Shown here: in pieces, positions 4,924 to 9,832 of the stretch
Numbering within the stretch: the first letter of the stretch is position 1
Layout: each line of letters starts with the position of its first letter
Assembly: GCA_016125285.1 (NCBI GenBank)
Contig: WGMA01000056.1
Location: 1-33,391, forward strand
Direction: 5' to 3'
Origin: Phycisphaera sp.
GTDB taxonomy: Bacteria; Planctomycetota; Phycisphaerae; Phycisphaerales; Zrk34
DNA: 33,391 bases
Program-made: the position numbers and the translations under genes
Notes under the pieces: generated by a model
Databases searched by the model: none
What the model saw: only the letters and a program-made list of their open reading frames with translations
What the model was told of the DNA's origin: nothing

Positions 4924-5052
4924 GATCGATCCACCGATGAACAGGAATGTGCCCGCCGCGCCGGACGCTCCGACGCCGCGCGAGGGCTGCATTGTAGCGG
5001 GGTGGATCGAGGCAAGTCACAGCCGGGATGCGACGTCATCCCGGCCCGGCCG

Positions 5053-5451
5053 TCAGCGAGAAGGCTTCACCTCGACGACCTCGAGCGTCTTGACGTCGAG
5101 TGTGAACTGGCGGCCGCGCTCGGCGTCGATCAACAGCTTGCCGTCGTTCGGTGACGCGGTGAGCTTCGTGATGAACTTCTCCTGCACGTCCTTCTCGAGG
5201 TTCTGGTTGTAGACGATGCGGTAGATCTCCTTGCGCCACGCCTGAGCCTTGCCGTCCTTTGGCTTGCCCTCGATCGACGCGACGAACGCCTTGCCGTCGT
5301 CGCCGCGTCCGTGGTGGGCGCTGTAGATCACGCCGTCCATCTCCACCGGCTTGACCTCCGGCGGGGCGACGCGTTTCGCCCACGCGCGCTTCACAGTCGT
5401 TCCGAGGATCAACCCCGCCGTCGCCATCAGCATCGTTCGTCGTGTCTGCAT
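5053..5451 (-). CDS. Hypothetical exported protein with twin-arginine-like signal
   Basis: A 132-residue protein whose N-terminus, MQTRRTMLMATAGLILGTT, looks like a Tat-type signal (TRRTML followed by a weakly hydrophobic core); cleavage would be after AWA at about residue 25. AGGAG lies 7 nt before the ATG at 5451. The mature part contains VEMDGVIYSAHHGRGDDGKAF and LLIDAERGRQFTLDVKTLEV, suggesting a small beta-rich domain that may bind a ligand. I do not recognise a family. It sits between the serine protease and DUF1080 genes on the same strand. Confidence 0.75.
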   Translation of the reverse strand: MQTRRTMLMATAGLILGTTVKRAWAKRVAPPEVKPVEMDGVIYSAHHGRGDDGKAFVASIEGKPKDGKAQAWRKEIYRIVYNQNLEKDVQEKFITKLTASPNDGKLLIDAERGRQFTLDVKTLEVVEVKPSR

Positions 5452-6757: not shown

Positions 6758-7489
6758 TCAACGAAACCCCGCAAGGTTAACGAGTTCGTCCACTACAACG
6801 CGCACTCCCGATTGGATGTTCTCCAGATCAGCCTTTACAGCCGTGTATCGTGGATTGTGAGCTGATCTATCACCTAGTTGCTTAATTGAATGAAGCGCCT
6901 TCTTTGCATCCCGACCTATGCCAATTCCATTCTTATCGCACGCCTTAAGGATAAGCTGCTGCAGCATGAAATAGTTGCCATCGCCATCGCGGATTTCGTC
7001 GGCGCGATTCGCGTGACAATAGGCATCAATAATCAAAGTCTCGACAAGACGCCTTACAAGAACAGAGGCGCCATCATAAAAACAGTACTGATACGATCCG
7101 TTAATCTGTGATGCTACACGTTCAATGTAACCTCGTGTGCCATGCCATACGGCCTCAGGGATATACCCCAATCGCTGATCAACCGATGGCATGATCCCGT
7201 CTATTGCCGTGCCGAATTTTGTTCGCAAAGCTGCGCGCGATGTGACTTTGAGATAGAAGCCCGCTGATTTAGCATTGACATGGCCGGACTTCTTTAACGC
7301 TTCCCCTAGGCGTGTAGAGTGCGGCGAACCAAGACCGGCATCGTGCATTATTCTTGCGATTGCTCCCGATGACATTGCATAGCCAGGATCCTTTTGATCG
7401 AAGAACCAAATAATCCCGAGAGCTCGCTCTACGTTCGTGAGTTCGAGTGACGCGAGGCCAAGGCAGAATTGTTCTAAGTCTGGTTCCAT
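6758..7489 (-). CDS. HEPN/DUF4145-like protein with N-terminal winged-helix-like domain
   Basis: A 243-residue protein of markedly lower GC than its neighbours. Residues about 20-92 form a helical domain ending in LKVTSRAALRTK that resembles the C-terminal domain of the upstream gene product. Residues about 110-240 have the DUF4145/HEPN-like pattern: YDGASVLVRRLVETLIIDAY (138-157), then LGDRSAHN (205-212) and an amphipathic end, DLENIQSGVRVVVDELVNLAG. GDRSAH has R208 and H211 only three apart, so it is the structural GNxAAH-type motif rather than a canonical Rx4-6H ribonuclease site. AGG lies 7 nt before the ATG, and the upstream stop is 8 nt away, so the two genes are co-translated. A defence or stress role is plausible but unproven. 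Confidence 0.8.
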   Translation of the reverse strand: MEPDLEQFCLGLASLELTNVERALGIIWFFDQKDPGYAMSSGAIARIMHDAGLGSPHSTRLGEALKKSGHVNAKSAGFYLKVTSRAALRTKFGTAIDGIMPSVDQRLGYIPEAVWHGTRGYIERVASQINGSYQYCFYDGASVLVRRLVETLIIDAYCHANRADEIRDGDGNYFMLQQLILKACDKNGIGIGRDAKKALHSIKQLGDRSAHNPRYTAVKADLENIQSGVRVVVDELVNLAGFR

Positions 7490-7497
7490 ACATCAGC

Positions 7498-8106
7498 CTA
7501 CTCACTGCGAGGCAGATCGTGCTCAACGAAGTTCTCGCCTTGGCTTGTCACCCGTAGCTTGGACATATTTGACGTATCAAGCCAACCCTTACGTGCGGAT
7601 GTGTTATTGATAACGGAGCCGATATTTGATGGGACTTTCGCGCCAACGTCCTTGAAGCACGTATACATGTGATCGATGTCGATGTCAGACAACCCTAATA
7701 CATGCTGCAAATAGTGTGTAAACAAAGTTACGCGTTCTTGGTCGGTTTTGGGTTTCTTCTGAGTGTAAATATCTTTAAGCGCATCCTTGCCCTTGGGACG
7801 TAAGTCCAAATCAACGTGTTTGTAGGTCGGGGGCTTAGATTTCTTCTTCTTCGACTTCTTCCTTGGGGTTTCTTGTGTCACCACTTCGTCAACCGACTCT
7901 TCTTCGAGTTCACTATTCGCAAGCTCGATCAATTCATCTTCGTCCAAATCTTCCGCATTTGGCAAAACTTTGATGATGCGAGTATCCGGCTGAAAAGTCC
8001 TGTTTACTGCAGCTGCAATTGAGGAGAGACTTTGCTGAAGCGTTTCGTTGTTGCCTTCGAGCTCAGCAAAGAATACGCGAATCCTCGCTTTGTCTTCCTT
8101 GGCCAT
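7498..8106 (-). CDS. Hypothetical protein with acidic/lysine-rich linker and winged-helix-like C-terminus
   Basis: A 202-residue lower-GC gene, first of a two-gene unit. The ATG at 8106 is chosen because GGAGG sits 5 nt before it; the ATG at 8118 lies in the SD. Residues 1-46 form a domain starting AKEDKARIRVFFAELEGNN. An acidic stretch follows (50-77) and then a basic run, PRKKSKKKKSK (81-91). Residues 124-197 form a helical domain with RKGWLDTSNMSKLRVTSQGE (172-191), resembling a winged helix: a W-bearing turn, then a strand of the wing. The same domain layout recurs at the N-terminus of the downstream protein. Nucleic-acid binding is a reasonable guess; I cannot name the family. Confidence 0.75.
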   Translation of the reverse strand: MAKEDKARIRVFFAELEGNNETLQQSLSSIAAAVNRTFQPDTRIIKVLPNAEDLDEDELIELANSELEEESVDEVVTQETPRKKSKKKKSKPPTYKHVDLDLRPKGKDALKDIYTQKKPKTDQERVTLFTHYLQHVLGLSDIDIDHMYTCFKDVGAKVPSNIGSVINNTSARKGWLDTSNMSKLRVTSQGENFVEHDLPRSE

Positions 8107-8123
8107 CACAACCTCCATTCAGT

Positions 8124-8161
8124 AAAAGAAAAACGGCGGGGCAGTCCTAACTGACCCGCCG
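8124..8161 (-). terminator. Rho-independent terminator of groES-groEL
   Basis: On the minus strand CGGCGGGTCAGT pairs with ACTGCCCCGCCG (one mismatch, 4-nt loop) and is followed by TTTTTCTTTT. It lies about 46 nt past the groEL stop and immediately before the SD of the lower-GC gene at 8106. The outer stem resembles the two terminators at 16692 and 16905. Confidence 0.9.
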
Positions 8162-8206
8162 TATTCGAGCGATATTCTTATGGCTAATAGTGTAGCCATT
8201 TATCTA

Positions 8207-9832
<1,626 letters not shown>

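Follow-up and report, generated by a model that had tools for sequence, protein, structure and literature searches.

A winged-helix/HEPN gene pair behind groEL in a planctomycete: a candidate anti-phage module

Retron-Kva2, which is a type IX retron, has a HEPN protein without the canonical motif (PMC13405049). A distant histidine and arginine, His64 and Arg122, meet at the HEPN dimer interface, and mutating either residue abolishes defence. Furthermore, the HEPN protein is sequestered by a complex that includes a winged-helix protein (PMC13405049). Kva2 is the closest described mechanism to the gene pair that we describe here, which we will call A-B. The pair lies in a 33,391-nucleotide stretch of DNA from a Phycisphaera sp. 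(contig WGMA01000056.1); the window, below, is this entire stretch.

Like a type IX retron, A-B combines a winged-helix protein with a HEPN protein that lacks the canonical motif (we compared the two systems by description). The protein sizes are about 27 and 19 kDa for Kva2 and about 25 and 19 kDa, as estimated from length, for a sister class of A-B whose adaptors are DUF5343 proteins. Unlike a type IX retron, A-B has no reverse transcriptase or msDNA. Also, the HEPN gene comes first in the cloned Kva2 operon, while the adaptor gene comes first in the A-B loci, and the corresponding residues of B (Arg146 and His211) are in the reverse order.

B also resembles three other groups of HEPN proteins. 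In the DUF4145 family, the catalytic motif is mostly conserved (80%; Anantharaman et al. 2013, PMC3710099), and DUF4145 domains are fused to restriction, helicase, sigma-HTH, or AbiJ-NTD parts (PMC3710099). B shares the HEPN fold, and its relative from locus L003 scores above the Pfam cut-off for DUF4145, but the catalytic arginine is lost throughout the B lineage. Csm6 and Csx1 are HEPN proteins as well: Csx1-Crn2 and Csm6 are in the first Foldseek rows for B (with E-values that are not significant), and Csm6' aligns with B at Z = 9.6. However, B has only a winged helix and a HEPN domain, with no CARF domain, and it is not accompanied by CRISPR genes. MNT-HepT has the HEPN fold (Z = 8.8–9.7) and a small two-gene layout, but A-B has no nucleotidyltransferase partner and no R-x4-HxY motif.

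In the DUF5343/HEPN pairs, as in A-B, the adaptor gene is directly upstream of a gene from the same HEPN lineage, but the adaptor has no detectable profile similarity to the winged helix of A and the HEPN protein has no N-terminal winged helix. The DUF5343 adaptor matches PDC-M34A from PADLOC (E = 8e-41), where PDC stands for phage defence candidate (PMC11514479). PDC-M34 consists of M34A and M34B together. The sister class has M34A; in six genomes, PDC-M34B did not match the downstream HEPN protein, in a search without a positive control. Searches of A and B themselves against PADLOC, PHROGs, and NCBIfam were empty or at noise level. So the initial annotation was right that A-B is not a known system, as far as A and B are concerned, but the adaptor of the sister class is already a PADLOC candidate. 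In the collection of papers that we searched, none names PDC-M34 or DUF5343.

The gene pair and its two proteins

The minus strand carries, in order, groEL (with its stop codon at 8207), a terminator-like hairpin, gene A, gene B after a gap of 8 nt, a zf-TFIIB gene, and a peptidase gene (Table 1). The initial annotation, which was made from the sequence alone, gave the coordinates of the unit and the gap correctly, and all of the peptides that it quoted, including GDRSAH, are found in the translations. It described the pair as lower in GC than its flanks, which we confirmed: the pair has 48.3% GC, whereas the window has 65.8%, groEL 65.7%, and the left flank 67.7%, and the pair is within the window's lowest-GC stretch of equal length. 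It also placed the pair right after the groEL terminator. Downstream of groEL there is indeed a strong, terminator-like hairpin, followed by TTTTTCTTTT, with a folding z-score of -3.1.

This hairpin is either the terminator of groEL or the leader of the A-B module. In the region between groEL and gene A (8107–8206), the 3' end of the hairpin is about 19 nt ahead of the start of gene A, so there is no space for a promoter after the hairpin. The pair may depend on read-through from upstream. Or, the hairpin may be the leader (an attenuator) of a promoter that is close to an inverted repeat; this repeat is a possible operator. We found no tRNA in the window, no long att-like direct repeat flanking the pair, and no credible RNA in an Rfam search of the A-B region.

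Table 1. Features of the A-B locus, in window coordinates
Feature	Position	Strand	Basis
Gene A	7498..8106	-	ORF and ribosome binding site; AlphaFold2 model; homologues in L002 and L038
Winged helix of A (residues 108-201 of 206-aa frame)	7516..7797	-	AlphaFold2; winged-helix fold matches
Gene B	6758..7489	-	ORF; AlphaFold2, pLDDT 93.6; conserved pair
Winged helix of B (residues 1-97)	7199..7489	-	AlphaFold2; profile match to winged helix of A
HEPN domain of B, DUF4145-like (residues 112-239)	6773..7156	-	AlphaFold2; 2hsb; DUF4145
GDRSAH motif (residues 206-211)	6857..6874	-	Alignment of 26 relatives
Terminator-like hairpin and T-run	8125..8165	-	Inverted arms 8130-8145 and 8150-8165; RNA fold
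Perfect 7-bp inverted repeat, ATGGCTA-6-TAGCCAT	8180..8199	.	Putative operator

Protein A (202 amino acids) is adaptor-like, with an N-terminal segment that is poorly modelled, a lysine-rich linker, and a C-terminal winged helix. The ATG at 8106 is directly preceded by a GGAGG ribosome site, which makes 8118, where a longer frame begins, an unlikely start. In the AlphaFold2 model, the N-terminal half is poor, and the winged helix has a pLDDT of about 88. The fold matches of the winged helix are mainly transcription regulators. A has no match in Pfam.

Protein B (243 amino acids) has a winged helix joined to a four-helix bundle, in an AlphaFold2 model that was built from an alignment of 27 relatives. 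The C-terminus of A and the N-terminus of B had been said to have the same layout, and this similarity is real, if remote. Both regions are modelled as winged helices, and their family profiles align in register (hhalign, 84%; taken as a single comparison, E = 7.9e-6). In the related pair from Chitinophaga (L038), the two winged-helix domains match each other directly (E = 3e-5). BLASTP of the winged helix of A against that of B in the window gave no match. The winged helices of A and B are remote homologs.

The C-terminal bundle of B has a four-helix HEPN fold, with a pLDDT of about 97. Its best HEPN structure match is 2hsb (Z = 13.3, rmsd 2.9, 119 residues). Further HEPN matches, including HepT and Csm6, are at Z of about 9–10, and the HEPN domain of Roquin is also among the matches. 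Since Z below about 13 may arise by chance for helical bundles, the HEPN assignment is based on 2hsb and on the DUF4145 match of a relative: B itself scores 20.7 bits against Pfam's DUF4145 (the cut-off is 23.1), and the L003 protein scores 28.1. The winged-helix and HEPN folds that the initial annotation had guessed at are supported. A sequence search for a relative of B's HEPN domain with a solved structure found none.

What the initial annotation had not noticed is that the HEPN domain of B lacks the canonical catalytic arginine. The R-x4-6-H motif of HEPN proteins is absent from the B lineage: the position of the canonical arginine, five before His211, is a glycine, followed by an aspartate, in all 26 of the sequences that cover the site. 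(Gly-Asp at 206–207 and Ala-His at 210–211 are both conserved in 26/26 relatives.) So we do not class B as a canonical HEPN RNase, and its HEPN domain may not be an RNase at all. Across phyla, His211, Arg146 (in helix 2), Lys203, and Arg230 are invariant in the alignment. By analogy to Kva2, our hypothesis is that a composite site may be formed by Arg146 together with His211, with the positions swapped, and that B might act as an RNase via this site.

Relatives, mobility, and defence neighbours

We scanned a genome collection with a profile for B's HEPN domain and found 31 loci from many phyla (Proteobacteria, Acidobacteria, Chloroflexi, Gemmatimonadetes, Bacteroidota, and others, as well as Planctomycetota records). 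In every one of the 31 loci, an adaptor gene is directly upstream of the HEPN gene, so the two genes do co-occur across genomes. (At L035, the end of the contig truncates the adaptor gene.) The adaptors fall into three classes: 24 are DUF5343 proteins, 6 have a strand-helix segment and a winged helix, and 1 is A-type. In the six strand-helix pairs, or class 1 (L018–L021, L024, and L046), an adaptor with a strand-helix N-terminus (LPDGTxVTIEGTxEEV) and a winged helix is followed by a winged-helix/HEPN protein that resembles B. In the DUF5343 class, a DUF5343-like adaptor is followed by a HEPN-only protein, without the N-terminal winged helix. We confirmed the Pfam match to DUF5343 for the copy at L004; we did not detect any profile similarity between DUF5343 and the winged helices of A or B. 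The HEPN proteins of the DUF5343 pairs share GDxSAH, QxNGxYxxG, and RRLxETLIIE with B and form one lineage with it. At L038, the adaptor has an A-type winged helix and the B-type protein has its own winged helix. The closest A-type pair is at L002, in another planctomycete from the same order, and has a divergent HEPN protein. (This protein, at 1492–2244 of L002, lacks GDxSAH and reads RDYRNVIHP there.)

Among 392 genomes of Planctomycetota, a profile search found B in just five, from five different families. We also compared the region downstream of groEL in seven relatives from the same family. The zf-TFIIB neighbour gave only weak and non-syntenic matches in relatives, so we used groEL, instead of the zf-TFIIB gene, as the anchor for an empty site. 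Downstream of the orthologous groEL (77–86% identity), all seven relatives have different genes, and B was not found there. Given the patchy distribution and the absence from this flank, A-B does not belong to the class's core genes, which was the alternative that the initial annotation had raised. What follows groEL in the relatives is a DDE transposase, a KAP NTPase, or a DUF4062 protein that matches the PADLOC candidate PDC-S60 (these three are in the flanks L093, L095, and L096), or else unrelated frames, and the site looks like a variable insertion spot. Overall, the best explanation is that A-B is an accessory module that was acquired horizontally.

Using the B profile, we identified three (pro)virus contigs with the DUF5343 version of the pair; queries with single proteins found no match in the viral contigs. 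At L146, the pair has a tmRNA on one side and a phage integrase on the other, which is the usual position for prophage cargo. At L147, the pair is near an Eco57I-type methyltransferase and an integrase, and the L148 pair comes after an Rz lysis gene. Also, the class-1 pair at L018 ends 79 bp from a tmRNA. We found no match in 72,556 plasmids and 50,697 phage records. For a mobile defence system, this is an uncommon result.

A PADLOC-matched neighbour is present within about 6 kb at 9 of the 31 pair loci, versus 1 of 36 control regions (Fisher p = 0.003), where the controls are arbitrary regions from the same genomes that were picked by hand once the loci had been seen, and were called by the PADLOC tally together with reading by eye. 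The defence neighbours are type IIG proteins (L022 and L025), MzaE (L023), DrmD (L026), an NsnA/PD-T4-2-like protein (L034), a methyl-directed restriction enzyme (L036), PtuA (L038), a type II methyltransferase (L045), and a type I methyltransferase (L048). The one control region with a defence match, L110, has a methyltransferase. Eight of the nine defence-linked loci are of the DUF5343 class and the ninth is L038, versus none of the six class-1 loci, so the support for the window's own kind of pair comes down to homology and L038. The HEPN proteins also have weak similarity in PADLOC to PD-Lambda-5_A (E = 6e-4, for L038) and to AbiJ (E = 0.013), which is compatible with a lineage of defence HEPN proteins. 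As for the suggestion that A-B is a mobile defence or toxin-type module, it gains from the prophage relatives and from the restriction, DISARM, MZA, and Septu neighbours, but the defence linkage lies mainly in the DUF5343 sub-class. Furthermore, many of the loci are surrounded by metabolic genes, which counts against a role in defence.

Possible roles of A-B

We propose that A-B is an uncharacterised mobile effector module of the winged-helix/HEPN type and that it is probably anti-phage. The function is one that we infer, and we would give this reading a probability of about one half. Most likely, the module is related to untested phage-defence candidates. In our model, which presumes an A-B complex, a trigger, and a defence phenotype, the small winged-helix adaptor A would bind and restrain a dimer of the winged-helix/HEPN effector B. 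Infection or another nucleic-acid stress signal, sensed via the winged helices, would free the HEPN domain. The freed HEPN would cleave or sequester RNA, growth would stop, and the population would be protected from the phage.

We also considered that A-B might be a toxin-antitoxin pair for stabilisation or stress dormancy, with A binding and neutralising an RNase B and repressing the operon via its winged helix. This would account for the arrangement of two small genes that overlap or abut, the putative antitoxin gene being in front, for the toxin-like fold of B's HEPN domain, which is related to HepT, and for the inverted repeat upstream, which is a candidate operator. Also, a Cytophagales genome (L048, 5156–6400) has an intact DUF5343 frame next to a broken HEPN frame. 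However, B carries its own winged helix, which HepT does not, it lacks the canonical catalytic arginine, and the pair was not found on the plasmids that we searched, so this seems unlikely to us. It does overlap with our proposal of an effector module, since an abortive system may itself be a toxin-antitoxin pair. The missing arginine, in 26/26 sequences, might instead indicate a non-toxic regulatory or nucleic-acid-binding complex, in which a dead HEPN domain is used for dimerisation or to bind RNA or nucleotides, and the winged helices bind DNA and control genes of the element or the host. The RNA-binding HEPN domain of Roquin is among the fold matches, the winged-helix matches are mainly transcription regulators, and several of the loci are in ordinary metabolic surroundings. 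But four invariant residues (His211, Arg146, Lys203, and Arg230) are more than a bare scaffold needs, and the relatives are associated with defence genes and prophages, so we doubt that A-B is just a regulatory complex.

A-B might also be a true descendant of a type IX retron whose reverse transcriptase and ncRNA were lost or are elsewhere, as the types of components are the same and the sizes are similar, going by the description of Kva2. This seems very improbable: no ORF near any of the loci has a reverse-transcriptase motif, 12 of the 30 genomes that carry the pair have no match to RVT_1, the only RVT_1 in the source genome is on a different contig, and there is no PADLOC match to a retron effector. 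With no reverse transcriptase near the loci, we rejected A-B as a retron.

If our proposal of an anti-phage module is correct, then A-B would represent a class of small HEPN effectors that has yet to be characterised and whose winged-helix partners are exchangeable. It would give DUF5343 and PDC-M34A a function, and type IX retrons would not be alone in their winged-helix/HEPN logic, which would also occur without a reverse transcriptase.

Variation among the adaptors

A broader and more tentative idea, which we would not bet on, is that these pairs form a widespread defence family. Interchangeable adaptors (A-type, strand-helix, or DUF5343) would act on one HEPN lineage whose active-site arginine has been relocated to another helix, much like a type IX retron without its reverse transcriptase. 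The DUF5343 adaptors (such as L028 5315–5950) all share a highly conserved C-terminal tail, HIDxQIHISPDxTPEQIDxIFxSMAKHLY, which probably contacts either the HEPN partner or the adaptor itself.

L020 and L046 have additional small genes within the same run of genes. Small winged-helix-like genes of this kind are at 4992–5438 and 6841–7392 of L020, at 4938–5462 of L046, and at 5108–5542 of L106. Their presence at some of the pairs suggests exchangeable or multiple adaptors.

We also noticed solitary A-like proteins that have no HEPN partner (L008 1276–1743, L009 1324–1794, L015, L016, and L017) in some Planctomycetota. These have a strand-helix N-terminus and an A-type winged helix, and are apparently a domesticated or ancestral form. 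The position of their genes, close to rpmE and prfA-like genes, is conserved.
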